In this document: one piece after another, positions 44,243 through 64,000 of the stretch
Position numbering within the stretch: position 1 is the stretch's first letter
Layout: each line of letters opens with the position of its first letter
Source: an uncultured Bacteroidota bacterium
Lineage (GTDB): Bacteria; Bacteroidota; Bacteroidia; B-17B0; Aurantibacillaceae
NCBI GenBank assembly: GCA_937873155.1
Contig: CALMVZ010000035.1
Location: 62,001-126,000, forward strand
Direction: 5' to 3'
DNA length: 64,000 nucleotides
Translations under genes and position numbers: made by a program
Notes under the pieces: generated by a model
Database searches by the model: none
What the model was told of the DNA's origin: nothing
The model's input: the letters and a program-made list of their open reading frames with translations, nothing else

Positions 44243-44294
44243 GAGTGTAGGTTTTAGTAACCCTAAAATTAACAAAAATTGTACCAAAAATGCA

Positions 44295-44346: not shown

Positions 44347-47300
44347 TTATCTGAAGAGCCCTACCGGACCGTTCTTTTTGTATTCTTTACCATCAAATCC
44401 GGTTGCAATTATAAAGTAGAAGTAGGTCCCATCAGTAGCTTTTTCGCCACTATTTGTAATTCCGTCCCATGCAGCTTTAGCTCCATTGAAACTATACATT
44501 AGCTGTCCCCAACGGTTAAATATCTGCAATTCGATCTCCTTTACTCCCGTTGATTTAATAGTGAAGAAATCATTTGTGCCATCATTATTAGGTGTAAATA
44601 CGTTTGGTATCTCAAGTGTGAATCCGTCCTCAATTACAATAACGGCATAAGCAGTATCCGAACACAAACCATTTGATGCGATCAACATTACTGTATATGT
44701 TCCTGATGTATTGTAAGTGTTGCTGGTATTTGTTGAAGTGGATACACTTCCATCACCAAAGATCCAATTATAGGTAACAGCGCCAATACTTCCATTAGTA
44801 AATACAACTGTTTGCGGTGTGAAGCCCGTAGTTACATCTGCTGTGAATGAAGCTGTAGGAACACCACTGCTTACAACAACAGTATTTGTTGCCATACAAC
44901 CGGTAGTAGGGTTAGTTACCGTTAGAGTATAAGTTCCCGGCTGATCAGCAATAGCTGTTGCCGAATTAGAACCGGAAATAACACTTGGGCCTGTCCAGGT
45001 AAAAATTACACCGGGATCGTTGGAACCGCCATTTAATGTAGCTGTTGTTGCACCACAAGGTATAATTGAATTAGCAACCACTGTATTTGATGGAGCTGTT
45101 GAATTATTATCAACAGTATACTGGGTAGCAACAAAACATCCGTTTGATGCATCAGTAACAATAACAGTATAGATACCGGGAACAGTTGTTGAAATACTTT
45201 GAGTGGTTGCAGATGTTGACCAACTATAAGTAACACCTGAGCTAGGTGTTGAAGCCGCATCTAACGTGATCATACTATTTGTAGATGAACAACCAATACC
45301 TATTGAAGATGTTGATGTAACGGTTGCGGTCGGAGCGATCGTACTTCCGGTAACAGTCATTGTCGCGGTATTAGAACAACCATTTACAGTATCGAATACA
45401 GAAACAGTATAAGTTCCGCTTTGATTTACTGTAACGCTTGAGTTATTTGGAGAGCCAACAATTCCTGTTCCTGACCATGTGTAAGTTAAACCTGAACCTG
45501 GTGTATAATTAGGATTGATAGTTACGTTAGGATTCCCGCATGAAATATTTGCAATGGCCGGTGTGATCACTGAAGGTGACACTGAATTATTAGCAACTGT
45601 TACAAAAGTTGTTGTGGTGCAGCCGTTACTTGCCGTTATCAAACAGGAATAAGTTCCGGGTGTATTAAATACCGGTGTTGTTGTGTTACTTCCGCTGCTG
45701 ATACCTGAAGCAGGTGACCATGAATAAGAAGCAATGGCCACTGTGCTTGTTGGAGTTACCGTTACACCTGTTGTAGATGATACGCAGGTAATACTAACAG
45801 TGTTAGCGCTAACTGTAACAGCCGGTGTATTTGCGTCTGCCACCATTGTCGCAGTCGCTGCCGCTGCTGAACAACCGTTAGTTCCTGTTGCTACAACACT
45901 ATAAACACCGGGACCCGAAATAGAAGCTGTTGCTGTTGAACCACCACTTAAAATAGTGCCTGTTCCAGGAGCTGTCCACGAATAAGTAGTTCCTCCCGTT
46001 GAAGTGGCAGTAATTGAAGTTGATGGTGTTAAACATGACAATGTAAATGAAGAAGGAGATGCGTTAACAGCCGTTGGAACATTCGTGCTGGAAACAACTG
46101 ATAAGGTTTCTGTTCCGGTACAGCCATTCGAAGTATTTGTTACAGTTACACTATACGTGCCTCCTAAACTGGAAGTAATTGCGGATAAAGTATTGGATCC
46201 GACAATTCCGGGACCGGACCAGTTATATGTGTAAGTCCCTGTTCCCGCAGTAGCAGTTAATACAGACGTAGGATTTGAACATGTAATAACATTAGACGAT
46301 GTTGTTGTTGGAGTTACTGCCGCATTATCAATTGTAACGCTGTTTGTAATTATTGAGGTACAACTATTTGATGTATTGGTTAAAGTTAAACTATAAACTC
46401 CACCCATGTTAACATTTATTGAGCCGGTATTTGCAGAACCAATAATTCCCGGGCCACTCCATGTATAGGTTACAGGTGATGTAGTTGTAGTTGATACTAC
46501 CTGGACACTGGTTGTTAAACAAGTAATAGTACCGGTATTAGAAACAGTTGCAGTAGGCGCACCTGCACTCGGAACAACCGTAGCAACTTGCGCTGCACTC
46601 TGACAACCGTTAGACGGGTCGGTAGCTATATATGTATAAGTTCCTGCTGAACATGCTGTCGCTGTATAAGAATTTGCACCTGCACAAACACCACCGGTCC
46701 ATACAACTGTACAAGAACTTGGGTTGGCGCTTCCGATCAATTGAACAGAAGGGGTAGCGCAAGTAATAGTTTGTGTACTTATTGGTGTAGTAGTTGGTGA
46801 AACAGTATTATTAGTTACAGAAGCGCTAACCACATTTGTACAACCATTCACGGCGCTGGTCACAAATAAAGAATAAGTACCTGCCTGGTTTACGTTAACA
46901 GTTGAATTATTAGCAGAGCCAACGATCCCCGGGCCGGTCCATGTATAAGTAACACCTGTTGTAGAAGAACTTAGGTTGACTGTTGGATTACTACATGTAA
47001 TAGTTGGTGTAGTATTAATTGATGGAGATGGCGGTGTTGTATTTGTAGAAGCAGTTACAACTGTCGATGTTGAACACCCGTTAGCCGGATTCTGAACAAT
47101 TACAGTATATGTCCCTCCGCCCGACCCGGTTGTATTTTGATTATTAACACCACCGGTAATTGAACTACCCGCAGGAGCCGTCCATGTATAATTCATTGCG
47201 CCAGGATTGGATGTTAAAGAAACCGTTGCGGAACCACAGGTAACTAAACCGTTCACCCCTGCAGTTGGTACTGGCGCTGTTGTATTCACATTCGCTGCAA

Positions 47301-50179: not shown

Positions 50180-53100
50180 TTACCTGAAGAGTCCAACAGA
50201 ACCATTTTTCTTAACCGGTTCTTTTGCACTATCAAATCCTGTAGCAACAATAAAATAGTAATAAGTGCCATCAGACGCTTTTTCACCGTTATTGGTAATT
50301 CCATCCCAAGCCGCTTTAGCACCGATGAAATTATACATTAATTGACCCCAACGGTTAAAGATCTGTAACTCTATTTCTTTTACACCTGTTGATTTAATAG
50401 TGAAAACATCATTGGTATTATCACCATTTGGTGTAAACACGTTTGGTACTTCAAGAGTAAATCCATCTTCGATAGTAATAACAACGGTAGCTGAATCACT
50501 GCATAAACCTGTTGATGCGATCATCAACACTGTATAAGTACCTGCAACACTATAAGTATTAGAAACAGACAAAGTAGTTGTGGTTATTGAAGAATTACCA
50601 TCACCAAAACTCCATGTAAATAAAGTTGCGCTGGAAGAACTTAAATTAGCGAAGTTCACTGTTTGTGGAGCAAAGCCTGTTGTAACATCAGGAATTATAG
50701 AAGCAGTAGGGACTCCGTTAACCAAAATTACCGTGCTCGTAGAGATACAACCTGTTGTAGGGTTCGTAACCGTTAGAACATAAGTTCCCGGTTGATCTAC
50801 TACAGGAGTTGATGTATTAGAACCTGTAATTGTTCCCGGTCCTGTCCAGCTGAATGTTACACCCGGATCAGGAGAACCGCCATTTAATGTTGCAGTAGTA
50901 GCACCGCAAGGCATAACTGCATTAGCCACCGAAGTTGCTGTTGGAACAGTAGTATTATTATCAACAGTAAATGAAACTGCAGTTGTACAGCTTGTTGCCG
51001 GATCTGTTATCACAACAGAATAAGTTCCTGCGGTATTTACTGAAATAGTTGGTGTAGTTGCTGATGTACTCCATACGTAAGTAACGTTGGTTGGAGTTGC
51101 ATTGGCAGTTAAGATATTTGTACTGTTAGTTGGTGAACATCCGATACCAACCGATGAAGAAGAAGTAACATTCAATAACGGTGGAATTGTTGTTCCAACA
51201 ACAACAACAGTTAATGTGTTATTAGTACAACCCGTCAATGTATTTGTTACAGAAACACTGTATGTTCCGTTTTGATTAACAGTAACACTGCCATCAGTTG
51301 CACTGCCAACAATACCGGGACCACTCCAAACATAAGTAAGATCAGTTGTCGGTGTGTAAGCCGGAGAAATAATTGTTGTAGGGTTAGCACAACTTAAAGG
51401 ACTTGCAGTTCCTGTTCCTGCAACAAAAGTTGGGGCGGTTGTTGAATTTGCAACGGTAATAATAGGGTATGAAACACAGCCATTTGTTGCGGTAATAGCA
51501 CAAGTATATGTGCCGGGAGTTGTAAAAGTAACAACACTTCCGGTAGTTGAACCGGATATACCCGAAGCAGGACTCCAGGAATAAGAACCAATTCCAATAG
51601 AGGAAGTAACGGTGACACTAACAGTTTGGTTAGCGCTTAAACAAGTTATACTTGGATTAGAATTACTTAATACATATGTCGGAGATCCGGGATTTGGCGA
51701 CACTGTTGCAATAGAAGCTGCCGCCGAACATCCGTTGGTTCCTGTTACAACTACACTATAAGTACCACTTCCATTAACAACCGCAGATGCAGAAGTTGCA
51801 CCGCTTGTTATACTCCCGGGGCCTGAAGCAATCCATGAATAAGTGGAAGCTCCGACTGCTGTGGCAGTTAATGCTGTTGTAGGTGTAGCACATGACAATG
51901 TAAATGTTGACGGATTGATACCAACAGAACTTGGCGCTGTGGTACTTGAATTAACTGTTAAAGCAGTTGTGCCAACGCAGCCATTTGAAGTATTAGTTAC
52001 TGTTACATTATAAGTACCTCCTAAACTTGCTGTTGCTGTTGATAAAGTATTTGTACCAACAATTCCGGGACCTGACCAATTATAAGAATAAGTTCCAACC
52101 CCTGCTCCGGCTGTCAAAGTCGCGTCAGTTGCACTGCAGGTAATAACGTTAGAAGAAGACGTTGTAGGAGTTACCGCCGCGTTATCAGCGGTAACACTAT
52201 TTGTAATAATAGATGTACAACTATTTAATAAGTTGGTAAGGGTTAAAGTATAAACACCACCCTGGTTCACATTGATAGTTGCAGTGCCAGCGCCTGAAAC
52301 TATGCCGGGCCCGCTCCAAGTATACGAAACAGGTGAAGTTGTAGTTGTAGCAACAACCTGTGCGCCTGTGGCCAAACAAGTTATTGTATTTGAATTCGCT
52401 AATGTAGCTGTAGGACTGTTTGCATCTGGTACAACAGTAAATGTTGCCGGAGCACTTGCACAACCATTAGCAGGATTTGTTACAGTCATTGAATAAGTTC
52501 CTGCACTACATGCAGTAGCTGTATATGAATTAGCACCTGCACAAACACCACCTGTCCAAACTACCGTACACGAACTTGGATTTGCACTACCTATTAAAGT
52601 AACCGAAGGTGTTGCACAAGTAATATTTACTGATCCGCTACCCAAAGCAGCGGGCGGTGTTGTATTAGTACCAATAGCTGCAATAGCTGCACTTGTACAA
52701 CTATTAGCAGTACTTGTTACAACTAAAGTGTAATTTCCTGACAGAACAACATTCACGGTTTGTGTATTTGCAGGACCAACTATACCGGTTCCTAACCATG
52801 AATACAGAACGCCTGAAGATGGATTTCCTGTTATATTAACTGAAGATGTAGAACAAGTTAAAGATTGTGACGGAATAGCTGTTTGCGTAGGAGCTGTGGT
52901 ATTTGTATTTGCAACAACCACTGCTGCCGGTGCTGAACAACCGTTAGTTCCTGTAACAACAACCGAGTAAGTTCCACCACCCGAACCTGTAGCGCTTGAT
53001 GAAGTTGCTCCCGAAGTGATCGAGGATCCCGCAGGGGCAGTCCATGAATAAGTTAAACCGGTTGGAGTAACCCCTAAGTTAATTGCAGTTGAAGCACAAG

Positions 53101-55804
53101 TAACGGTTCCTGAAGTGCTTGCAGATATACCTGTAGGAGCCAAAGTATTAAATGGCGCTGATGCAGTTGCCTGAGCCGTACATCCATTTACGGAGCTTTG
53201 GAAAATAACTGTGTATGTTCCCGGTCCTGTACCCGTAGTATTAGCATTATTCACACCACCACTTATCGAACTTCCCACAGGTGGTACCCATGTATAAGTT
53301 CCACCACTTGATGGCGATCCGCTTAAACTGAATGTTTGGCTTGCACAAGTAATAGAACTTGTTGCAGAAGCGCTCACGCCCGTAGGCGCAACAGTGTTTA
53401 TGATGGCAGATGCCGTAGCCTGTGTGGTACAACCGTTAGTTGCACTTGTAACTCTTACCGTATATGTACCAGGACCAGAGCCGGTCGTATTTTGATTATT
53501 CACGCCTCCGGTTATCGAACTTCCAGCAGGAGCAGTCCATGTATAGGTCATACCCGAAGGATTAGAAGTTAAATTGATAACGCTGTTTGTACAAGTAACT
53601 GAAGCGCTTGATCCAGCTGTAACACCTACAGGCGCAACTGTGTTAAATGGTGCGGCAACTGTAGCCTGTGCAGTACATCCGTTAACGGCACTCGCCGCAA
53701 TTAAAGTATATGTACCACTTCCCGAACCCGTCGTGTTTTGGTTATTTACACCGCCGGTAATAGAACTACCAACAGGAGCAACCCAGGTATAGGTCATACC
53801 TGCAGGAGTACCATTTAAAGAAAGCGTATTACTTGAGCAGGTGATTGAGCTTCCGGCAGTGGCATTCACGCCAACCGGAGCTACTGTATTGATCGAAGCC
53901 GCCACAGTCGCAATATTTGTACAACCGTTAACTGCATCTGTAACTCTTACAGTATATGTTCCGGGACCTGAACCTGTTGTGTTTTGATTATTGACACCAC
54001 CGGTTATCGAACTACCCGCAGGAGCTGTCCATGTATAAGTTAATCCATTTAAACCGGCAGTAAGATTTATTGTACTGCTGCTGCAAGTTACGTTACCCGA
54101 AGTGCCGGCTGTTGCAGTTGGTGCAACTGTATTGATCAATGCTGCAACTGTTGCCTGGGCAGTACAACCATTAACAGCACTTTGTATTTTTACAGTGTAT
54201 GTTCCGGGACCTGAACCGGTAGTATTCTGATTATTTGCACCACCCGTAATCGAACTTCCCCCGGGAGCAGTCCACGTATAAGTCAAACCACCTGTAGTAG
54301 AAGTTAAGTTTATTGAAGTATTATTACACGTAACCGAACCAGATGTTCCTGCTGAAGTAGAAGGAGCAACTGTATTGATCTGAGCGGCCACAGTCGTAAT
54401 TGCTGAACATCCGTTAGCCGGATTCACAACCCTTACGGTGTAGGTACCCGGACCGGAACCTGTAGTATTTTGATTATTGACGCCGCCTGTAATCGAACTT
54501 CCAGCAGGTGCAGTCCATGTGTAATTCATACCGGCAGGCAGTGATGTTAAGTTGATAGAGTTGTTGGTACAGGTAACAGAAGCTGATGTACCTGCTGTTG
54601 GTGACGGAGGTGTTGTATTTGTTCCAACTGCCACAGTACTAGGAAGGGATGTACAACCGCCTGAAGTGACAGTTAAAGTATAAGTTCCCGCTGTTCCAAC
54701 AGTAGGATTCGCGGTGGTACCTCCTGAAATAATTCCGGGACCGGACCATGAATAGCTTGGGCCACCTGAACCCGCAAGCACTGTTGTAATATTAACACAG
54801 GTTAAAGATTGGGTTGCTCCTGCATTTGCGACGGGCAAAGGATTAACAATAATATTATTTGAAAATGTTCGACCACATTGAGGACTAACACCAACCGTAT
54901 ATGTTACAGGGAAAGTGCCAGCTCCTGTAAGAGAAGGACAGAACGATGTACTGGAAACACCAAGAGGAGCCGTAAAAGTTCCTCCGGCGGTGGCCGTTCC
55001 GGATAGTAATGGGGTTAAATTCACACATGGCCCGTTAGCACACATGGCAGCTGGTGCCGACCATGTTGCACTATAAGGATTAGTGATAGAAATAGTTCTT
55101 GTAAGAATAGGACAAACACCCGAAGGACCCTGAGTATCGAACGAATAAGAAACTGTATATATACCCTGAGCCATCTGATAAGTATCCAACCAACAATAAC
55201 CTGCCTGACTTACAAAAGAGGCAGTTGACGCAATGGCAGGTGCAATTGTCCAGGAAGGAAGACCAATCGGTGAACCGGCAGGTATAGTAACTGTTTGACA
55301 ATTTCCAGCAGGAGTATTTGCCCATACACCACTTGCTAATGGTACACTGCTATAACAGCTTGAAACCGTATAACCAAAAGAGGCACCCGCATTTATGTTG
55401 CAAAGGTTATAGCCATGGGTCTGACTAGGGTCAACTCCGTACAATGAAAAAGTATAGTTAGAAGAACTCGGCAAAACGGAAGAACAGGTTGGACATAACA
55501 TCGCGACATTTGTATTTGTCCCCTGACCAACAATTACAGAGTTGTTTGATGCTGTGAGTGGTGCAGTTGGATTGAACCTGATCCTTATACAAGGCACACT
55601 TCCGGTATTCCCTACCAGCCAATTGGTTTCATGCAGATAGATCAGATCCGGATAATTACATGGAATGGTAGCTGAAATAGGTGCATCAGTAGCATCATTA
55701 TAAACACCAAGACTTGGAGAAACCATACAAGTCATTTGTGCATTAATGTTGTTTCCCGAAAGAAACAATACTAACAATAATAAGATTTTGTAAATGTTTT
55801 TCAT
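50180..55804 (-). CDS. Giant secreted surface protein 3 (17 Ig-like modules, PKD, T9SS type B CTD)
   Basis: A 1874-residue protein with a signal peptide (IYKILLLLVLFLSGNNINAQ). The N-terminal 300 or so residues are cysteine-rich and unlike those of the other giants (NYPDLIYLHETNWLVGNTG, and GYCWLDTYQMAQGIYTVSYS). Seventeen Ig-like modules follow, each with an opening TC and closing GC cysteine. Modules 2-7 form a block with the repeated core GSSITGGVNNQNTTGSG. The last ten keep the order seen in giants 1 and 2. A PKD domain (FTWSFGDGN) and a gliding-motility-associated C-terminal domain (VPNVFTPNGDNTNDVF) end it. The CTD has a short insertion (SAKEPVK) compared with its paralogues. A small secreted protein gene lies 8 bases upstream, probably co-transcribed. 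Confidence 0.92.
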   Translation of the reverse strand: MKNIYKILLLLVLFLSGNNINAQMTCMVSPSLGVYNDATDAPISATIPCNYPDLIYLHETNWLVGNTGSVPCIRIRFNPTAPLTASNNSVIVGQGTNTNVAMLCPTCSSVLPSSSNYTFSLYGVDPSQTHGYNLCNINAGASFGYTVSSCYSSVPLASGVWANTPAGNCQTVTIPAGSPIGLPSWTIAPAIASTASFVSQAGYCWLDTYQMAQGIYTVSYSFDTQGPSGVCPILTRTISITNPYSATWSAPAAMCANGPCVNLTPLLSGTATAGGTFTAPLGVSSTSFCPSLTGAGTFPVTYTVGVSPQCGRTFSNNIIVNPLPVANAGATQSLTCVNITTVLAGSGGPSYSWSGPGIISGGTTANPTVGTAGTYTLTVTSGGCTSLPSTVAVGTNTTPPSPTAGTSASVTCTNNSINLTSLPAGMNYTWTAPAGSSITGGVNNQNTTGSGPGTYTVRVVNPANGCSAITTVAAQINTVAPSTSAGTSGSVTCNNTSINLTSTTGGLTYTWTAPGGSSITGGANNQNTTGSGPGTYTVKIQSAVNGCTAQATVAALINTVAPTATAGTSGNVTCSSSTINLTAGLNGLTYTWTAPAGSSITGGVNNQNTTGSGPGTYTVRVTDAVNGCTNIATVAASINTVAPVGVNATAGSSITCSSNTLSLNGTPAGMTYTWVAPVGSSITGGVNNQNTTGSGSGTYTLIAASAVNGCTAQATVAAPFNTVAPVGVTAGSSASVTCTNSVINLTSNPSGMTYTWTAPAGSSITGGVNNQNTTGSGPGTYTVRVTSATNGCTTQATASAIINTVAPTGVSASATSSITCASQTFSLSGSPSSGGTYTWVPPVGSSISGGVNNANTTGTGPGTYTVIFQSSVNGCTAQATASAPFNTLAPTGISASTSGTVTCASTAINLGVTPTGLTYSWTAPAGSSITSGATSSSATGSGGGTYSVVVTGTNGCSAPAAVVVANTNTTAPTQTAIPSQSLTCSTSSVNITGNPSSGVLYSWLGTGIVGPANTQTVNVVLSGNYTLVVTSTANSCTSAAIAAIGTNTTPPAALGSGSVNITCATPSVTLIGSANPSSCTVVWTGGVCAGANSYTATACSAGTYSMTVTNPANGCASAPATFTVVPDANSPTATLANSNTITCLATGAQVVATTTTSPVSYTWSGPGIVSGAGTATINVNQGGVYTLTLTNLLNSCTSIITNSVTADNAAVTPTTSSSNVITCSATDATLTAGAGVGTYSYNWSGPGIVGTNTLSTATASLGGTYNVTVTNTSNGCVGTTALTVNSSTTAPSSVGINPSTFTLSCATPTTALTATAVGASTYSWIASGPGSITSGATSASAVVNGSGTYSVVVTGTNGCSAAASIATVSPNPGSPTYVLSNSNPSITCLSANQTVSVTVTSSIGIGSYSWSPASGISGSTTGSVVTFTTPGTYTCAITATNGCVSYPIITVANSTTAPTFVAGTGTASPLSCANPTTIISPAYTPTTDLTYVWSGPGIVGSATDGSVTVNQNGTYSVSVTNTLTGCTNNTLTVVVVGTTIPPLLNVTSSSSVGIGCSPTNSTNILTANATPTNVTYVWSTSATTPTISVNTAGTYSVVITDPATSCTTAVSFTVDNNTTVPTATSVANAVMPCGATTATLNGGSPDPGVTFSWTGPGTITGSNTSTPVVDQPGTYVLTVTNPTTGCISTSTVILVNGVPTASIIPDVTTGFAPQTVNFANLSSSSATLFTWSFGDGNSSITTTTLSVSNTYSVAGTYTVLMIASTGLCSDSATVVITIEDGFTLEVPNVFTPNGDNTNDVFTIKSTGVKEIELQIFNRWGQLMYNFIGAKAAWDGITNNGEKASDGTYYYFIVATGFDSAKEPVKKNGSVGLFR
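50715..54840 (-). repeat. Array of 17 Ig-like coding modules in giant gene 3
   Basis: In-frame modules of about 235-250 bases. The N-terminal-side block has expanded by tandem duplication, and the C-terminal ten align one-to-one with the paralogues. Confidence 0.9.
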
Positions 55805-55812
55805 ATCTGAAA

Positions 55813-56166
55813 TTATTCTGTAATTAATGAATTCTTATGTTCAGGTTTTAGCAGATGCTTGTTCTTAGATATCCAGTCGTTAAGAACCTTTAGATACTCC
55901 GACTTAACAACATACCCGGCAGATTTTGGCGCCTGAGTTGGAATAATATCATTTAAAAAATAATTTTTTAAAGTTGCATCATAACCAAAATATGAAGAGG
56001 GCTGCGAAAGTCCCTGCCTTTGCATAGTTACATCATCATGTCTTTTTTTGAACTCCTGGAATTTAGGATCGTTTGACATGTCAGGTTTGTTTTGAACACT
56101 TGCATCCTGAGCGAATGAGATTTGCGCGAAACAACATGCAATAGAAAAAAAGAATAGTTTTTTCAT
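55813..56166 (-). CDS. Small secreted protein upstream of giant gene 3
   Basis: A 117-residue protein with a signal peptide (KKLFFFSIACCFAQISFAQ). The mature part is hydrophilic and probably helical (DPKFQEFKKRHDDVTMQRQG, then KVLNDWISKNKHLL). It has no C-terminal sorting domain, so it is expected to stay in the periplasm. No family is recognised. It ends 8 bases before the giant gene 3 start, which implies a shared transcript and possibly a chaperone-like or partner role; this is inference. The frame extends upstream 17 codons without a signal-like sequence, so the ATG at 56166 is used. Confidence 0.8.
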   Translation of the reverse strand: MKKLFFFSIACCFAQISFAQDASVQNKPDMSNDPKFQEFKKRHDDVTMQRQGLSQPSSYFGYDATLKNYFLNDIIPTQAPKSAGYVVKSEYLKVLNDWISKNKHLLKPEHKNSLITE

Positions 56167-56285
56167 GTTTGGTAAAATTTCGACTAAGATAATAAAAAGC
56201 AGGTAAAAATCAACCAAACAAAGAACTAATTAATTATTGATTTTCAATAAGTTAAAGCTAAACTCACCTAAATTGTTTTAAATGC

Positions 56286-58202
56286 TTACCAAGCCTTTTT
56301 ATTGAATTTTATTTCCAGTTTTGTTATAAAATCTGCAACATTGGAGTTGTTGGGATTTATTTGCAAGGCTGCTTTATAGTAATAGATGCTATTCAGAGTA
56401 TCCCTGGCTTCAAAAAATGTTTTTCCAATAAGAACATTCATTAATTCGGGTTGGATACCTTGATCCAGTTTTTCCTTTAAGAATTTAACTCCTTCAGAAG
56501 GATTGGTACGGGTATAAAGATCCTGGAGTACTTCGTAAGGCACGGAAAAATCACCTTTTGTGTCGTGCAGGATGGCCAGTTTCAGATATTTTTTTGCAAG
56601 ATCAACCTGTCCTAACCTGAAATACGCTATCCCTATATTACAGATCACCTCTTTTTTAGTTGTATCCCGTTTATAGGCCAATTTCAAATAAGGCAGTGCT
56701 TCCGCAGGTTGACGCTCAAAGGTCAGATACATGTAAGATAAATTATTGTAACATCCGCCACAGGAAGAATCGGTTTGGATCGATCTTTTCAGGATCTGTT
56801 CCGCTTCCCTGATCTTTCTTATTTTTTCACCTTCAGTCATCTCTTTCGCTTTATTCGGATCACTGATATTAATAATGAGCTGACTTGTGGTTAAGAGCGC
56901 AAGTTTTACCGATTCAGGATACTTTTTCGCATCGGCTTCAAACAGAACATATTTATTTTTCCATTCTTTATTACGCATCACAATTAAAAACGAGAACAGC
57001 ACAAGAAAAATGCCCGGTATCATTTTCTGATAAGGTTTCAGATCTGCGAACGAAATATTTGCCTTTGGATTGTTCCTGTAATAAAATAAAAAGTACACCG
57101 CTATTAAACTGAATCCTGTTGATGCAAAGAATGCAAACCGGTCGGCAACAATCCCCGGTGCAGGCATAGCAAAATTCAGGTACATAGAGATCGACAGACC
57201 GAAAAATACAATGCCATACCACAAAAGATCCGGTTTTTTAAATCTCTTGAAGAAAACATAAGCCATCCCTGCGAAACCTGCCAGACCAAGAAGTGCAAAG
57301 AAAGAAGTGAATGAGTAGACCGAAATTGTATTATAGCCATAATACGATGCCATTTTTGTCGGGAAGATCAACATCTTGATATAAAACCCAAGCGAGTTAA
57401 AAGTAGCTGAGACCCTTAACATAACATCTCTTTCAAAATACAACGGGCTCTCAAAATAATTAAAGGTCCTCACCTGCGCTACACTCCTATCCAATAAAAA
57501 ATGTTTGGCAACCTTATAAGAATAGAAAGAAACAATGAACATCAGGATGATCCCTACGATCAGTTTTACCTTTAAGCTTCCGCGTTTCAACAAGATCAAA
57601 GGCACCAACACTAAAAAAGGGAATACATCGAACTTACTCAGGAACGCCAATCCAAAACTTATAATAGCAGGTAAAATGAAAAGTATTTTTTTTGTTTCGG
57701 TATATTTTGCAATTGAAATAAATCCAAGTATTGAAAAAATAAAACACAACAGGATATCGCGATTCTTTAAACTGGCAACTACCTCGGTATGTATTGGTAA
57801 AATAGCAAATATGAAAACAGCCGAGAATATTATAAATGGAGGATACTCTTTGAATAACAGCTTAAAAAGCCTTAACAGAACCAATAAGCATATGGCATAC
57901 AACAACACATTTATAAAATGGCCTGCCATGATATTCAATCCGAAAAGCTGGTGTTGCAGAGCGAAAGTAACTTTAACAATAGGCCTGTATTCGTACATGT
58001 TTCCACTCTCATCATTCACATGGTAGGTCCTGAAGATCCTAGGAATTGCTTTTATTCCTTTTGAAGTAATGTTATCCGGACCGGTCACAAACTCATCATC
58101 CAATCCGTAACCGTTTGTCAGTGTATTTCCGTATAAAATAAAAGCTGTTAATACAAGTATGATCCTGTGATTTTTCGGAGCGAATATTTTTTTGAGTAAC
58201 AT
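56286..58202 (-). CDS. TMTC-like membrane glycosyltransferase with C-terminal TPRs
   Basis: A 638-residue polytopic membrane protein with about 11 membrane helices over residues 15-400, then TPR-type helices (about 455-635). The first luminal loop has acidic NGYGLDDEFVTG, as in GT-C enzymes. EYRPIVKVTFALQHQLFGLN and AILPIHTEVVASLKNRDILL closely follow the pattern of TMTC proteins, which O-mannosylate beta-sandwich cadherin domains in animals. Bacterial relatives are mostly uncharacterised. It would use a polyprenyl-phosphate sugar on the outer face of the inner membrane. It lies 18 bases after the acyl-CoA dehydrogenase gene and upstream of the giant Ig-like protein genes on the same strand. 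Confidence 0.85.
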   Translation of the reverse strand: MLLKKIFAPKNHRIILVLTAFILYGNTLTNGYGLDDEFVTGPDNITSKGIKAIPRIFRTYHVNDESGNMYEYRPIVKVTFALQHQLFGLNIMAGHFINVLLYAICLLVLLRLFKLLFKEYPPFIIFSAVFIFAILPIHTEVVASLKNRDILLCFIFSILGFISIAKYTETKKILFILPAIISFGLAFLSKFDVFPFLVLVPLILLKRGSLKVKLIVGIILMFIVSFYSYKVAKHFLLDRSVAQVRTFNYFESPLYFERDVMLRVSATFNSLGFYIKMLIFPTKMASYYGYNTISVYSFTSFFALLGLAGFAGMAYVFFKRFKKPDLLWYGIVFFGLSISMYLNFAMPAPGIVADRFAFFASTGFSLIAVYFLFYYRNNPKANISFADLKPYQKMIPGIFLVLFSFLIVMRNKEWKNKYVLFEADAKKYPESVKLALLTTSQLIINISDPNKAKEMTEGEKIRKIREAEQILKRSIQTDSSCGGCYNNLSYMYLTFERQPAEALPYLKLAYKRDTTKKEVICNIGIAYFRLGQVDLAKKYLKLAILHDTKGDFSVPYEVLQDLYTRTNPSEGVKFLKEKLDQGIQPELMNVLIGKTFFEARDTLNSIYYYKAALQINPNNSNVADFITKLEIKFNKKAW

Positions 58203-58220
58203 AGTTTAACAGAACAAATT

Positions 58221-59366
58221 TTAAACGTCAGCCGAAATGATATTACGTTGAATTGCTGAAGTGCCTGAATACAACAAAGAAGCAAAACTGTCCCTGTATT
58301 CGCGTTCGATACCCGCTTCCACCAGATAACCGTAAGCACCGAAGATCTCTTGTAATTGCTTGATCGCAGTTACAACATGTTCCGAAACAAAAAGTTTTGC
58401 TATGGATGCGCGTGTCAATGCATTTTTAGGTTTTGTATCAATAGAATACGCTGCATCATAAACTAAATTCTTACCCGCATTTAAAATTGTTTTAATATCT
58501 GCTATCTTATGCTGAATATTCTGGAATTCAAACAGATTTTTGTTGTTCAGTTTTCTTTTCTTGGTGAAAAGAACTGCTTTATCAAGAACTCTATCCAATT
58601 GTCCAACTAAAAAAGCACTTACCACTGCCCTCTCCCAGATCATACTGTTGTTGAATATCTGTCCGCCGGAACCCGGTTTTCCGATCATACTATCTTCATC
58701 AATTTCAAAATGATTGAATTTTATATCACCCATTTGAGCAGTACGCAATCCCATCTTATCTTTCACTTTACTGATCTTGATCTCTTTTGCATCTGATTTT
58801 ACGATGAAACAGGAAACTCCTCCGAAAAAACCTTTGGTTTTATCTGTTAAAGCATAAACCACCAAAACATCACATACAGGTGAATTGGTTATGTACCTTT
58901 TTTCCCCATCGATGATATAAGAACTGCCTTTTTTAACTGCCATCGACGACATATTGTAAACATCGGATCCTGCATTATACTCTGTAATTGCATTGGCAGC
59001 GATCCATTGTCCGGATGCCATTTTTTTAAGGTACTTATCTTTTTGTTCATCACTTCCGTAAAAAGAGAGTGGAGAAACACAAGCGATCAAATGAGCAATT
59101 GAAGAAAATATCATTCCGTTATTTTCACAACCATAAGCTAATGCTTCATAAGCTACACAGGTTTTAAGAGCTGAAAATCCTTTTCCGCCATAACTTTCAT
59201 CGGCCACTAATCCGTGCAAACCATTCTTCGAAAAGTGATTCCATAAACTGCGGTCGAAAAAATTATTCTTATCCTGTTCTACCAGGTCTTTTGCAGGAAA
59301 AGACTTTCCCACTTCGTGAAACGTATTGTAAATAGTTTTATAGTTCTTTAATATCCCTAAGATCAT
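58221..59366 (-). CDS. Acyl-CoA dehydrogenase-family protein
   Basis: A 381-residue flavoprotein of the acyl-CoA dehydrogenase fold: helical N-terminal domain (LHGLVADESYGGKGFSALKT), central beta domain (AITEYNAGSDVYNMSSMAVK, then GEKRYITNSPVCDVLVVYAL) and C-terminal helical domain (IFGAYGYLVEAGIEREYRDS). At the MCAD-type catalytic position (YEGT) the sequence is YSGT, so that glutamate is absent. A glutamate is present in MIWERAVVSAF, where isovaleryl- and long-chain dehydrogenases keep their base. It probably acts on a CoA- or carrier-bound acyl chain, given the divergent KAS/ACP operon. The ATG at 59366 is preferred over an upstream TTG and sits 27 bases after a good -7 element. Confidence 0.92.
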   Translation of the reverse strand: MILGILKNYKTIYNTFHEVGKSFPAKDLVEQDKNNFFDRSLWNHFSKNGLHGLVADESYGGKGFSALKTCVAYEALAYGCENNGMIFSSIAHLIACVSPLSFYGSDEQKDKYLKKMASGQWIAANAITEYNAGSDVYNMSSMAVKKGSSYIIDGEKRYITNSPVCDVLVVYALTDKTKGFFGGVSCFIVKSDAKEIKISKVKDKMGLRTAQMGDIKFNHFEIDEDSMIGKPGSGGQIFNNSMIWERAVVSAFLVGQLDRVLDKAVLFTKKRKLNNKNLFEFQNIQHKIADIKTILNAGKNLVYDAAYSIDTKPKNALTRASIAKLFVSEHVVTAIKQLQEIFGAYGYLVEAGIEREYRDSFASLLYSGTSAIQRNIISADV

Positions 59367-59392
59367 ATGAAAACTTTTAGATAAATACCATC

Positions 59393-59400
59393 CAAAAATA
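59393..59400 (-). promoter_or_regulatory. Candidate -7 promoter element of the acyl-CoA dehydrogenase operon
   Basis: The minus strand reads TATTTTTG, matching TAnnTTTG, 26 bases before the chosen ATG. Confidence 0.5.
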
Positions 59401-59468
59401 ACATAATAAACCAAATTAAGCCTGAGATAGGTAAATAAGTTTTAACCCGTTAAGAACAATCGTGTTAA

Positions 59469-59500
59469 TTTGCAGTAAAGGCACATTTTTTCTACATTTA
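59469..59500 (+). promoter_or_regulatory. Candidate promoter of the KAS/ACP operon
   Basis: A -33 box TTTG (59469-59472), a 20-base spacer and TACATTTA (59493-59500), one base off TAnnTTTG. It lies 6 bases before the ATG. Together with the minus-strand element it makes a divergent control region of about 140 bases. Confidence 0.55.
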
Positions 59501-59506
59501 TAGCTT

Positions 59507-60484
59507 ATGGGCCTATCTCTTGATAAATTAAGCATTCATCTGCCGTCACAGGTACTTACGAATGAAATGCTGGCCAAAGAATTCAAAACGGATACCGCGG
59601 ATATTTTCAAAAGAACAGGTATTGAAACCCGTTATTTATCTGCAAAAAACGAGACTGCTTCTGACCTTGCCTACCAGGCCGCCAAAAAATTATTGAGTGA
59701 AAATCCCGGGAAAAAAATAGATTTCTTAATTTTCTGTTCCGATTGTTTTGATTACATAGCACCAGCTACATCCTGTATACTCCAGGACCGTTTAAGTCTT
59801 CCGCAAAATACAGGCTGCATCGATCTTCCTTATGGCTGCTCAGGTTTTGTTTATGGTTTAGGCATCGCAAATGGTTTGTTGCATAGCGGAATGGCAGAAA
59901 CTATTTTATTTTTGACCTGCGATACCTCCACAAAAACATTACATCCTGAAAATTTAGAACAAAGAAGTTTGTTTAGCGATGCCGCAGTGGCAATGCTGAT
60001 CACGAAAAATAATTCGCCTATAAACAGTTTTGTTTTTGGATCTGATGGCAGTGGTGCGCTTGACCTTTATATTGAAGGAAGCGCTTTCCGTAAACCACAG
60101 GATGATAATTTTAAAAGGGAAACCGGTTTGCCTTACGGACAAATGGTAATGAATGGAACTAATGTTTTTTCGTTCGCATTACGTACTGTTCCTCCAATGA
60201 TAAATGATACTTTGAAAAAATCAGGGATCGCTTTTGACGAGATAGATCTTTTTGTATTTCACCAGGCGAATGGATTCTTATTAGAGACACTAAGGAAGAA
60301 AATGAATATCCCGAAGGAGAAATTTTATACCAACCTGAAAGATTACGGGAATACGGTTGCTTCTTCTATTCCATTAGCTCTTTATACCGCAGAACAGGAA
60401 AAAGTACTGAAAAAAGGCATGAAAGTTCTTGTAGCCGGATTTGGGGTCGGAAATAGTTGGGGAGCAACCATAATTAATTATTAA
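59507..60484 (+). CDS. 3-oxoacyl-ACP synthase III-family enzyme, copy 1
   Basis: A 325-residue KAS III (FabH-like) thiolase-fold enzyme that condenses a CoA- or carrier-bound starter with malonyl-ACP. The catalytic triad is complete: Cys111 in DLPYGCSGFVYGLG, His252 in LFVFHQANGFLLETLRKK and Asn282 in LKDYGNTVASSIPLAL. The C-terminal GFGVGNSWGATII is typical. It is not the sole housekeeping FabH in appearance, because it opens an operon with its own acyl carrier protein and a second KAS III. Its role is more likely in a specialised acyl group than in bulk lipid synthesis. Confidence 0.93.
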   Translation: MGLSLDKLSIHLPSQVLTNEMLAKEFKTDTADIFKRTGIETRYLSAKNETASDLAYQAAKKLLSENPGKKIDFLIFCSDCFDYIAPATSCILQDRLSLPQNTGCIDLPYGCSGFVYGLGIANGLLHSGMAETILFLTCDTSTKTLHPENLEQRSLFSDAAVAMLITKNNSPINSFVFGSDGSGALDLYIEGSAFRKPQDDNFKRETGLPYGQMVMNGTNVFSFALRTVPPMINDTLKKSGIAFDEIDLFVFHQANGFLLETLRKKMNIPKEKFYTNLKDYGNTVASSIPLALYTAEQEKVLKKGMKVLVAGFGVGNSWGATIINY

Positions 60485-60493
60485 ATTTGTTTT

Positions 60494-60730
60494 ATGCTTT
60501 TAGAAGAATTCATAAGTAAACTGGAGGGTGAATTTGATGATATGCCGAAAGGTACCCTTCAACCGGATACCGATTACCGCAGTATTAAAGGATGGAGCAG
60601 CATGCACGCTCTTATCATCATTGCATTTGTGGATATTAATTTCAATATCACTTTGAACGGTTCCGACCTGAAAGCGACTAAGACCGTAAGCGACCTCTAC
60701 AATCTTGTTCAACAAAAAAGACCGGCTTGA
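60494..60730 (+). CDS. Dedicated acyl carrier protein
   Basis: A 78-residue acidic acyl carrier protein. The phosphopantetheine attachment serine is Ser36 in GWSSMHALIIIAFVD, where Trp-Ser-Ser-Met stands in place of the usual Asp-Ser-Leu. This variant is common in carrier proteins of glycan-linked clusters. The preceding block TLQPDTDYRSIKGW fits the ACP helix I-II loop. It starts 9 bases after the KAS III stop, and its own TGA overlaps the TTG start of the second KAS III. It would carry the acyl intermediates of this operon. Confidence 0.92.
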   Translation: MLLEEFISKLEGEFDDMPKGTLQPDTDYRSIKGWSSMHALIIIAFVDINFNITLNGSDLKATKTVSDLYNLVQQKRPA

Positions 60731-61791
60731 GCAGCTTCAAAACATCCAACGTTTCTATTAAAGGGCTAACGGTTTGCGTACCGGGTGAAGTAAAAAGTAT
60801 TTTCGATTATGATCTTTTAAGTAAAGACGAGCAAGATCTGTTCTATAAAACCGTCGGGATAAAAGAACGCCGAGTGGCAAGGCCTGAAGTTACTTGTAGT
60901 GATCTCTGTGAAAAGTCTGCACGTCATTTTTTTGAGAACAATATTACAAAACCTGAAAATATTGACCTGGTTGTTTTTGTTTCCCAATCGCCTGATTATT
61001 TTTTGCCATCAACTGCAGTTATTCTACAGGATAAATTAGGGTTAAAGAAAACAACACTCGCGTTTGATGTAACGCTCGGCTGCAGCGGGTATATTTATGG
61101 ATTAAGTATCATTGCAAATTTTTTACAAAGCGGACAATTTAAGCAAGCGCTTTTGTTGTGTGGTGATAAATCAACTATTTCGACTTATATCGAAGATAAA
61201 AGTTCGTATCCTTTATTCGGTGATGCAGGCTCGGCTACTTTATTGGAATACGATACAGATGCAGAAGATATGATCTTCAATATGAATAGTGATGGCGCCG
61301 GTAAGAACGCGATCATAATTGAACACGGACATTCAAGACATCCTTATTCTCCTGAATCAGATGTTATCATGCAAATTGAACCGGGAGTAAGAAGAGGAAA
61401 AAAACATTTAGCATTGAATGGCCAGGATATTTTCACATTCGCCTTGAAAGAAGTATCACCTAATATCAATGAAACTTTAAAGGCAGCGGGAAAAACCATA
61501 AATGACATTGATCATTTTATATTACACCAGGCCAATAAACTCATTAATGAAACGATCCGGAAAAAATTAGGTATAGAAAAAGAGAAATACCCCTATTCCA
61601 TTGAATTATTCGGGAACACCAGCTCAGCCTCAGTGCCTTTAACCATGTGTTATGTCTTAGAGCAACAATTATTAAAAGAAAGATTAAATTTGTTGCTGTG
61701 CGGCTTTGGAGTAGGTTTATCGTGGGGAAGCGTTATTTTAAGAACAGACAAACTGCTTTGCGCTAAATTATTTGATTATGATAAGCCTTAA
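60727..61791 (+). CDS. 3-oxoacyl-ACP synthase III-family enzyme, copy 2
   Basis: A 354-residue KAS III with a complete triad: Cys119 in FDVTLGCSGYIYGLS, His267 in HFILHQANKLINETIRKK and Asn297 in IELFGNTSSASVPL. It starts at TTG, overlapping the carrier protein stop as TTGA, a coupled-translation arrangement. It is clearly diverged from copy 1, with a longer N-terminus and the insertion HGHSRHPYSPESDVIMQIE around residues 200-220. Two non-identical KAS III enzymes sharing one carrier suggest two successive condensations or two different starters. Confidence 0.92.
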   Translation: MSSFKTSNVSIKGLTVCVPGEVKSIFDYDLLSKDEQDLFYKTVGIKERRVARPEVTCSDLCEKSARHFFENNITKPENIDLVVFVSQSPDYFLPSTAVILQDKLGLKKTTLAFDVTLGCSGYIYGLSIIANFLQSGQFKQALLLCGDKSTISTYIEDKSSYPLFGDAGSATLLEYDTDAEDMIFNMNSDGAGKNAIIIEHGHSRHPYSPESDVIMQIEPGVRRGKKHLALNGQDIFTFALKEVSPNINETLKAAGKTINDIDHFILHQANKLINETIRKKLGIEKEKYPYSIELFGNTSSASVPLTMCYVLEQQLLKERLNLLLCGFGVGLSWGSVILRTDKLLCAKLFDYDKP

Positions 61792-62521
61792 GGGTAAACA
61801 TATAATGATCACGGGAGCTTCTTCCGGCATTGGACAAGCCACTGCTATCCTATGTGATAGTTTGGGCGCTACCGTTACAATTACAGGCAGAAACGAATCT
61901 GCTTTAAAAGAAACGGCTAAAGAACTGAAAAATTCATCAAAGATCGTTGTAGCTGATCTGACCAGCCGGGAACAACTAACTGCACTTGTAAATAAAAGCG
62001 GTGCTGTTGATGGTTTAGTGAATTGTGCAGGGATAGTTAAACCACTTCCAATAAAATATATTAAGCAAAAAAATATTTCAGAGATGTTCGATGCTAATTT
62101 TTCATCGTCCGTTTTATTATGCAGCGAATTAAGCAATCAGAAAAAGATAAATGAGAACGCTTCGGTGATATTTATTTCTTCTGTATCAGCACAGCATCCT
62201 TACATCGGCGGAAGTTTATACAGCGCTTCGAAAGCAGCGTTAGAAGCATTCTGCAGGTCGTTTGCTATTGAAAATGCAGGTAAAAAGATAAGAGCGAATG
62301 TAGTTTCTCCTGCCCTTGTAAAAACAAAGATATTTACTGAAACAGAATTAGCAACTTCAGAAGAAGAAATGCAAAAATATGAATCCCAGTATCCTTTAGG
62401 TTTTGGTGAACCGGTTGATGTGGCGAATTGTATCGCATTTTTACTTTCACCCGCATCAAAATGGATCACCGGGACAACGATAAATATGGATGGCGGATTA
62501 CTTTTAAGCAGTAAAAAATAA
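61778..62521 (+). CDS. SDR-family 3-oxoacyl reductase (FabG-like)
   Basis: A 247-residue classical short-chain dehydrogenase. The NAD(P)-binding motif TGASSGIG is at residues 12-19, and NCAG is at 82-85. The catalytic Ser is in IFISSVSAQ, and Tyr148 and Lys152 are in LYSASKAAL. The C-terminal WITGTTINMDGGLLLS is typical of FabG-like members. It most likely reduces the 3-oxoacyl chain made by the KAS III enzymes to a 3-hydroxyacyl chain on the carrier. The ATG at 61778 overlaps the KAS III end by 14 bases. A sugar reductase role is possible but less likely next to KAS/ACP genes. Confidence 0.92.
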   Translation: MISLKGKHIMITGASSGIGQATAILCDSLGATVTITGRNESALKETAKELKNSSKIVVADLTSREQLTALVNKSGAVDGLVNCAGIVKPLPIKYIKQKNISEMFDANFSSSVLLCSELSNQKKINENASVIFISSVSAQHPYIGGSLYSASKAALEAFCRSFAIENAGKKIRANVVSPALVKTKIFTETELATSEEEMQKYESQYPLGFGEPVDVANCIAFLLSPASKWITGTTINMDGGLLLSSKK

Positions 62522-62523
62522 GT

Positions 62524-63444
62524 ATGGATTATTCAGTCATAATTCCCGCATATCACGCAGCGCCCGGCATCGAAAAACTTTACGGTGAGTTGAAAAAGTA
62601 TTTTACTTCGGTAAATAAGTCATTTGAAGTTATTATAGTTGATGATGCAAGTACTGATAATACATGGGAGGTCCTGAAAAAATTAAAAGCGGCTAATAAC
62701 AATGTAAAAATAATTTTGTTCGCTAAGAATTTTGGCCAGCACGCGGCAACCTTATGTGGGTTCACTTATGCAAAGGGAAAATTCGTGATCACTATGGATG
62801 ATGATATGGAAGTACATCCCGACCAGATCACAAAATTAGCAGAGGCACAAGTTGAAAAAGATTATGATGTTGTTTATGGTGAATACGGAAAACTGAATCA
62901 ACCTTTTTTCAGAGGCATCATTACCAGGATGTATAAATTCGGTTCCAAAGTAGAAGGAAAGAACCGTGGGAAAGGCTCTCCTTTCCGTCTGATCAAAAAT
63001 GAACTGGCGCAAAAACTCGCTCATACCCACAAACATTTTGTTTTTATTGATGAATTATTACTGTGGTACACTTCGAGAATGAAATTTATCAGAATTGATG
63101 CGAACCCTGACTATATTAAAAAAAGCAGTTATTCATTAGGCAGCCTTTTCAAGATCACCAGTAACGTGATCATGTTCTCTTCAACTGTTCCTTTAAAATT
63201 TGTAACTAATATTGGGGTTGGCCTTGCCTCGATTAATTTTTTGATAGGTCTATTTTACATTCTGAAAAAAGTATTATTCCGCATTCCTGCTCCGGGATAC
63301 ACTTCTATTATTGTGAGTGTATTGTTTTCAACAGGACTTATCGTATTAAGCGTTGGGATCGTGGCTCAGTATATCAGTAAGATCTTACAGGATATAAATA
63401 AAAAACCTTCATACCACATTTCAGAACAACTTGCTGACGATTAA
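62524..63444 (+). CDS. DPM/ArnC-like family 2 glycosyltransferase with two membrane helices
   Basis: A 306-residue GT2 of the polyprenyl-phosphate glycosyltransferase type (GtrB, ArnC, DPM1). The GT-A core has YSVIIPAYHAAPGIEKLYGE, IIVDDASTDNTWEVLKK and the metal motif ITMDDDMEVHPDQI. Two C-terminal membrane helices follow (NIGVGLASINFLIGLFYIL and ISVLFSTGLIVLSVGIVAQ-like). Such enzymes put a sugar on a lipid phosphate at the cytoplasmic face, making the donor that GT-C membrane enzymes use outside. A TMTC-like GT-C gene lies 4 kb away. It starts 2 bases after the SDR stop. Confidence 0.92.
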   Translation: MDYSVIIPAYHAAPGIEKLYGELKKYFTSVNKSFEVIIVDDASTDNTWEVLKKLKAANNNVKIILFAKNFGQHAATLCGFTYAKGKFVITMDDDMEVHPDQITKLAEAQVEKDYDVVYGEYGKLNQPFFRGIITRMYKFGSKVEGKNRGKGSPFRLIKNELAQKLAHTHKHFVFIDELLLWYTSRMKFIRIDANPDYIKKSSYSLGSLFKITSNVIMFSSTVPLKFVTNIGVGLASINFLIGLFYILKKVLFRIPAPGYTSIIVSVLFSTGLIVLSVGIVAQYISKILQDINKKPSYHISEQLADD

Positions 63445-64000
63445 ACAATATGGCGTAACTCTGAGAAGGATCACGCCCGATGATATAGAATTACTGCGTT
63501 ACTGGCGGAATCAGCAAACGGTGAAGATGTATATGGATTACCGGGAATACATCACGCCGGAAATGCAAAAAAAATGGTTTGAGTCGATCGATAATAAATT
63601 CAATTACTATTTTATTATTGAATTTGAGAATAAAAAAGTTGGATTGATCAACGCAAAGAATTTCAGTTACACAAATGGATTCGGAGAAGGAGGCATTTTT
63701 ATCTGGGATACTGATTATATCAATTCCTTTGCAGCTGTCTTCAGTACATTATGTCTTTTGAATTTTGTTTTCTTTAAAGTTAAACTTTGCAACCTCTCCC
63801 ATGCAAGGATCTTAAGTGATAACGACAGAGCTATTCATTACAATCAACTCATCGGTTATAAATTATCACCGGGACAAGAAAAAGTTTATAATCAATTGTA
63901 TGTATTGAGTCTTGAAGATTATAAAAAAACAGGGAATAAACTGAACAAAGCTGCAGAGATGCTGAATAACGGCGATGGTGAATTGATCTTTGAAGGAACT
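63431..64000 (+). CDS. GNAT-family N-acyltransferase, C-terminus cut by window edge
   Basis: An open frame of 190 codons runs to the right edge without a stop. It starts at TTG 63431 inside the end of the GT2 gene (then LTIKQYGVTLRRITPDDIEL), overlapping it by 14 bases. The GNAT pattern is clear: RYWRNQQTVKMYMDYREYIT, then QKKWFESIDNKFNYYFIIEF, then KVGLINAKNFSY, and later LSDNDRAIHYNQLIGYK, which resembles the C-terminal acetyl-CoA-site helix. It is similar in layout to aminosugar N-acetyltransferases (PseH or WecD-like). In this operon it is a candidate for moving the carrier-bound acyl group to an amino sugar. Confidence 0.85.
   Translation, partial: MLTIKQYGVTLRRITPDDIELLRYWRNQQTVKMYMDYREYITPEMQKKWFESIDNKFNYYFIIEFENKKVGLINAKNFSYTNGFGEGGIFIWDTDYINSFAAVFSTLCLLNFVFFKVKLCNLSHARILSDNDRAIHYNQLIGYKLSPGQEKVYNQLYVLSLEDYKKTGNKLNKAAEMLNNGDGELIFEGT

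Follow-up and report, generated by a model that had tools for sequence, protein, structure and literature searches.

What does a TMTC-like glycosyltransferase modify, if its gene lies beside the genes of three giant surface proteins and faces an operon for making an acyl chain? The question arises from the stretch of DNA that we analyzed (the window), which is 64,000 nucleotides long and lies at C35:62001-126000 in a Bacteroidota genome of 4.85 Mb. A first-pass annotation proposed that these genes form one pathway that decorates the immunoglobulin (Ig)-like modules of the exported giants with an acylated sugar. The genes that it named (a glycosyltransferase of family GT2, the TMTC-like enzyme of the GT-C type, the acyl-chain operon, a GNAT acyltransferase, and the three giants) are all present where it placed them. 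The arrangement is real and conserved, and it occurs in several families of the class. What is new here, and can be tested, is the pairing of TMTC-like genes with giants; in the literature that we searched, we found no description of this arrangement. The acyl-chain module and giants with CHU_C domains are each already familiar.

In the window, the TMTC-like gene (56286-58202, minus strand) is followed downstream, on the same strand, by giant 1 (50180-55804), giant 2 (44347-50085), and giant 3 (38381-44287). We looked for such neighbors at 54 TMTC-like genes with a readable downstream side, nearly all of them from the window's order, and 25 of these have a giant as their next downstream neighbor in the same orientation, separated by no more than one small gene. 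(By giant, we mean a protein with sufficient length plus either Ser/Thr content or a CHU_C-like end; some were cut at the ends of the stretches.) By comparison, the same was true of 1 of 20 other TMTC-like or GT-C paralogs and of 4 of 235 random genes from the same genomes. If tandem TMTC-like genes are allowed and loci from outside the order are added, then 35 of 63 TMTC-like genes have an adjacent giant. Pairs are also found outside the window's order, and at some loci the unit of TMTC-like gene and giant is repeated two or three times (L057, L081, L089, L091, and L067/L084). Because the arrangement is kept in distant relatives and is far above the controls, we consider it to be beyond chance. 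In one clade of TMTC-like genes, proteins of about 1475 amino acids that are not rich in Ser/Thr take the place of the giants downstream (L099:5198 and L100:5182).

The giants also appear to come in matched sets. Between the TMTC-like gene and giant 1 is a gene for a small secreted protein (55813-56217, minus strand) that was absent from the first-pass annotation, and its real start is probably an ATG internal to the listed open reading frame. This protein belongs to family A, which has nine members in the same slot at different loci; scans of Pfam and NCBIfam gave no match for it. The small proteins in this slot mostly belong to families A, B, and C, which have no mutual similarity at E 1e-3. 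The giants that are adjacent to TMTC-like genes form four types by N-terminal homology, and each of three types has a small secreted protein of its own: family A occurs with type 1 giants, family B with type 3, and family C with type 2. All 20 cases with a classed small protein follow this pattern, a count that carries no correction for ancestry. Type 3 giants belong with one clade of TMTC-like genes. Type 1 giants are paired with TMTC-like genes of several clades, and therefore the pairs have been re-formed and not merely inherited. Another family of secreted proteins, of about 130 amino acids and with 13 members, lies upstream of the TMTC-like gene on the same strand (in L054, L057, L060, L065, L067, L070, and others).

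The TMTC-like protein has 638 amino acids and ends in tetratricopeptide repeats (TPRs). Besides TPR models, a Pfam scan at E 0.001 returned only PMT_2 (E 1.4e-5, slightly below the cut-off), and no TMTC-specific domain model matched. In the AlphaFold2 (AF2) model, which has a predicted local distance difference test (pLDDT) score of 87.8, the first 430 or so residues align with the oligosaccharyltransferase (OST) subunit STT3 (Z 19), Pmt4 (Z 17.5), and ArnT (Z 16.9), and the remainder aligns with TPR proteins. The N-terminal half of the model has the GT-C fold of the OST/PMT/ArnT type, a call that depends on a second look with VIA-align, because Foldseek alone put the TPRs first. When compared with the sequences of solved structures, an N-terminal profile had no match and a full-length profile matched only TPR proteins, among the matches listed. 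Two adjacent aspartates, D35 and D36, lie in the first loop, after the helix at 9-29, and are invariant in 41 relatives. Both the fold and the Asp pair agree with the earlier description of the enzyme as a TMTC-like GT-C. We do not call it a member of TMTC/GT105, because no TMTC-specific model matched it and no animal sequence was compared. A piece of a TMTC-like protein, 98 amino acids long, lies beside a full-length copy in the same genome (L066:16601-16897 and L089:1601-1897) and looks like a remnant.

Given the fold, the enzyme might instead be an ArnT-like modifier of lipopolysaccharide (LPS) or of another glycolipid, with the giants adjoining it only as surface genes of the same regulon or island. 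ArnT is a close fold match, the GT2 of the operon is near to ArnC, and giants are common in the window's genome, which has 55 CHU_C matches over the cut-off. But it would be surprising if mere surface genes gave an adjacency that is same-strand, ordered, recurrent, and tandem, with changed partners, when other GT-C paralogs in the same genomes lack it (the 1 in 20 above). The TPR domain also suits a protein acceptor. We consider the ArnT-like explanation to be improbable.

Each of the window's giants, which are our proposed acceptors, is built mostly from some 17 modules, each about 81 residues long and marked by an invariant Cys, Tyr-x-Trp, Gly-x-Tyr, and Cys. A model of two modules (pLDDT 91.4) has its best matches to fragments of grappling hook protein A (GhpA) from Aureispira (PDB 9flp and others) and then to Ig domains of titin, NCAM, and CEACAM, so the modules are Ig-like, as had been claimed. 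Giant 1 (1874 amino acids) is homologous to GhpA in sequence (5.3e-100), although the giants are about a third of its length. All three giants are rich in Ser and Thr, and they are type B cargo of the type IX secretion system, as judged by their C-terminal CHU_C domains (1.1e-21 in giant 1; at C35:106374 in giant 2, which has 1912 amino acids; and at C35:100402 in giant 3, which has 1968 amino acids as listed, from a doubtful TTG start). Giant 1 also matches TIGR04131 and PKD. We do not imply a hook function for these giants, because another giant of the same genome is a better match to GhpA (G000:C4:84000-97999 or L153:2394-6788, with E reported as 0). We also rejected the idea that GhpA modules mark the giants beside TMTC-like genes: that better match is not adjacent to one, and a type 3 giant does not match GhpA. 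In large genomes of another family, GhpA-type giants and TMTC-like genes are mostly on different contigs.

Another possibility is that any glycosylation of the giants comes from the general O-glycosylation system of the Bacteroidota, which acts at D(S/T)X and is phylum-wide (PMC10897501), and that the TMTC-like gene is not involved. The motif D(S/T)(AILMTV) is indeed enriched in secreted-like proteins of these genomes (1.93 times the expected number, versus 1.06 in cytosolic-like proteins). Yet the giants adjacent to TMTC-like genes contain just 0.40 of the expected motifs, as compared to 1.35 for other giants, and 3 of 30 reach the expectation, as compared to 10 of 22 other giants, where modules within one protein are not independent. 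For example, giant 1 of the window has 2 sites versus 3.8 expected. We think it very improbable that the general system accounts for these proteins. The TMTC-adjacent giants are also richer in Ser and Thr, with a median fraction of 0.306, as compared to 0.244 for 22 others in the window's genome.

How might the enzyme obtain its sugar? Divergent from the TMTC-like gene, on the plus strand, is an operon for two ketoacyl synthases of the KASIII type (59507-60484 and 60727-61791, each with a visible Cys-His-Asn triad), a small acyl carrier protein (ACP) between them (60494-60730), a FabG-like short-chain dehydrogenase/reductase (SDR) that keeps Tyr-x-x-x-Lys (61772-62521), the GT2 (62524-63444), and a PseH-like GNAT acyltransferase (63431-64048), which runs past the end of the window at 64000 to C35:126048. 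The synthases, the reductase, and the GNAT were assigned with library scans. The ACP had no match in Pfam or NCBIfam scans, and we assigned it by its length, its WSSM motif, its place between the two KASIII genes, and its conservation in relatives. The best NCBIfam models for the GT2 are PgfS and ArnC, both under the cut-off; we did not file it as a PgfS because it missed that cut-off (130 bits versus 500). Its nearest solved structures, to which it is related over its full length, are GtrB (sll0501), at 4.8e-47 over 2-301, and ArnC, at 3.7e-40. Enzymes of the GtrB/ArnC type produce undecaprenyl-phosphate monosaccharides. This relationship bears out the earlier view that the GT2 is of the polyprenyl-phosphate type.

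The TMTC-like gene faces the KASIII-ACP-KASIII-SDR-GT2-GNAT operon at 13 of the loci that were annotated first, including the window, and at several later ones. A genome scan with the GT2 gave four loci, of which three are close, and L011 and L013 keep the order of giant, TMTC-like gene, and operon. The divergent block is also found outside the order (L169, L177, L180, L185, and L187), and the TMTC-like gene and the operon are arranged differently in L173 to L176, L178, and L181. In the order, a profile for the GNAT matched 39 of 87 genomes, and in the class, it matched 57 of 395. In the sample of the class, 54 genomes have both the GNAT and a TMTC-like gene, 3 have only the GNAT, 129 have only the TMTC-like gene, and 209 have neither; outside the window's own family, these counts are 48, 3, 126, and 203, and in one genus they are 5, 0, 3, and 32. 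If shared ancestry is ignored, then Fisher's test gives 5e-17 for the class and 8.5e-5 for the one genus.

The strongest competitor to a single pathway is that these are two neighbors with two jobs: the TMTC-like enzyme would glycosylate the giants using another GT2, and the operon with its GT2 and GNAT would decorate a polysaccharide, LPS, or a lipid, in a role like that of the wfp genes in the O-antigen of Flavobacterium psychrophilum. In that organism, wfpC-wfpD-wfpE-wfpF are the proposed makers of the 3,5-dihydroxyhexanoyl group on the O-antigen sugar Qui2NAc4NR, and these genes serve an O-polysaccharide (PMC6519341). As compared by gene order and family, our module and wfpC-wfpD-wfpE-wfpF(-wfpG) share a row of ketoacyl synthase, ACP, ketoacyl synthase, and ketoreductase, along with a gene for an acyltransferase. 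But in our operon the GT2 and the GNAT come next, rather than a homolog of PglD, and we did not recognize any O-antigen genes in the cluster, including a polymerase or a flippase. The sulfotransferases, the hydroxylase resembling LpxO or OlsC, and the AMP-ligase nearby would suit a surface polymer or a lipid, and one genome (G086) has the operon at a locus (L061) without a TMTC-like gene, while in G086 and G073 a TMTC-like gene is paired with a giant with no operon beside it. On the other hand, the GNAT is nearly always accompanied by a TMTC-like gene (in 54 of 57 genomes), usually side by side, and the GT2 is of the type that makes undecaprenyl-phosphate monosaccharides, as GT-C enzymes need. 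Two separate jobs are possible, but we are inclined to doubt them.

Several observations weigh against a single fixed pathway. The operon is divergent from the TMTC-like gene and the giants; 129 of the sampled genomes carry a TMTC-like gene without the operon's GNAT; no sugar-nucleotide gene was recognized within the cluster; and the window's genome holds further ArnC/GtrB-like GT2 genes that could feed the TMTC-like enzyme. As for the giants, none is adjacent to 28 of the 63 TMTC-like genes that are readable in the tree or, in genera g4 and g9, to any operon-linked TMTC-like gene whose flank can be read. Giant adjacency changed at least 10 times on the TMTC tree, and our pairing statistics carry no correction for shared ancestry. 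Also, of seven Ser/Thr-rich giants that are not beside a TMTC-like gene, five are below the motif expectation, four of them clearly. So the single pathway of the first-pass annotation is only partly supported, because many TMTC-like genes occur without the operon or without a giant next to them; the conserved block, the pairing with giants, and the co-occurrence with the GNAT do speak for it.

We think that the chances are about even that these genes encode a lipid-linked system for protein O-glycosylation that is dedicated to giant adhesins secreted by the type IX route and that works in the manner of Pgf from Streptococcus mutans or of the animal TMTCs. First, judging from the families and the wfpC-D-E-F gene order, the two KASIII enzymes, the ACP, and the reductase would build a short hydroxylated acyl chain. 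Second, the GNAT may attach this chain to an amino sugar. Third, the GtrB/ArnC-like GT2 would, given its family, load the sugar onto undecaprenyl phosphate. Fourth, the TMTC-like enzyme, acting in the periplasm, would transfer the sugar to Ser or Thr of the Ig-like modules, as suggested by its fold, its Asp pair, and the recurrent pairing; the TPRs may hold the emerging giant during the transfer. Finally, the giant, which carries a CHU_C signal, would exit via the type IX system. It seems likely that the TMTC-like enzyme modifies the adjacent giants, and on balance we slightly favor the operon's GT2 as the supplier of its donor. That the donor sugar is acylated falls a little short of an even bet. 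We infer both the sugar on the giants and its acylation, and the latter is the weakest part of the proposal.

The closest precedent from experiments comes from S. mutans, in which modification of the neighboring Thr-rich adhesin Cnm requires PgfS and PgfM1 (PMC5856776). There, pgfS-pgfM1-pgfE-pgfM2 lie beside cnm, so both systems place an ArnC/PgfS-type GT2 and a membrane protein of the PMT_2 type next to a gene for an adhesin, which is Ser/Thr-rich in our case. In contrast to Pgf, our system is Gram-negative and has type IX-secreted Ig-like giants, a GT-C with TPRs, an acyl-chain operon, and tandem cassettes of enzyme and giant, and we did not recognize an epimerase in the cluster. The enzyme resembles animal TMTC1-4 (CAZy GT105; PMC7801869, PMC11292533) in its GT-C fold, the acidic pair in the first loop, the C-terminal TPRs, and the Ig-like beta-sandwich partners. 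It differs from them in being bacterial, in having no TMTC-specific Pfam match, in that its acceptor is putative, and in that its donor sugar is perhaps acylated. The animal enzymes glycosylate beta-strands in the Ig-like domains of cadherins, and it has been proposed that their TPRs recruit the substrate (PMC11292533).

Full-length homologs of TMTC are already known in prokaryotes but are uncharacterized (PMC7801869). The repeated pairing with giant Ig-like proteins gives these homologs a concrete predicted substrate. It also allows a bacterium to be used for studying how a GT-C with TPRs picks Ig-like folds, which is an open question for the animal TMTCs (PMC11292533). And if the acyl operon does feed the TMTC-like enzyme, then adhesins related to grappling-hook modules would bear an acylated sugar outside the general route of O-glycosylation in Bacteroidota. 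More speculatively, and we are doubtful of this, each TMTC-like enzyme and its matched small secreted partner could be a cassette that is dedicated to one type of giant and attaches an N-acylated sugar to its modules, which would be further sulfated or aminoacylated in some species. Such a system would parallel the O-mannosylation of cadherins, but in bacteria and with a glycan that is chemically new.

The gap between the TMTC-like gene and the operon contains a PigA-like acyl-CoA/acyl-ACP dehydrogenase (58221-59414, minus strand; NF053553 at 3.4e-103 and 345.7 bits, with a cut-off of 500), which was also missing from the first-pass annotation. It is 94% identical between two species (the other is L051:10687-11832), as compared to about 73-84% for neighboring proteins of the cluster, and we saw it in this gap in these two species only. 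Beyond the window are genes for the acyl hydroxylase resembling LpxO or OlsC, a DltA-like AMP-ligase, an ACP, and a large protein that we call MBOAT-like from its look and place alone (it has no Pfam match and has weak matches to SGNH esterases near its C-terminus). Further on are two sulfotransferase-like genes, one gene without an assignment, and then NtrC- and Ppx-like genes. Prolyl or pyrrolyl chemistry for the AMP-ligase and the dehydrogenase remains just a lead, because the cut-offs for PigA and RedW were not reached and the models closest to the ligase are DltA and generic adenylation models. At other loci as well (L054, L057, L060, L065, L067, L070, and others), the operon is often followed by sulfotransferases and by paired hydroxylases that resemble LpxO. 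At three loci (L068:9239-16183, L169:1126-8000, and L059:6750-13616), a gene resembling flavin halogenases, with CmlS as its nearest model (under the cut-off), joins the AMP-ligase, the ACP, the dehydrogenase, and the MBOAT-like gene, perhaps for a halogenated aminoacyl decoration.

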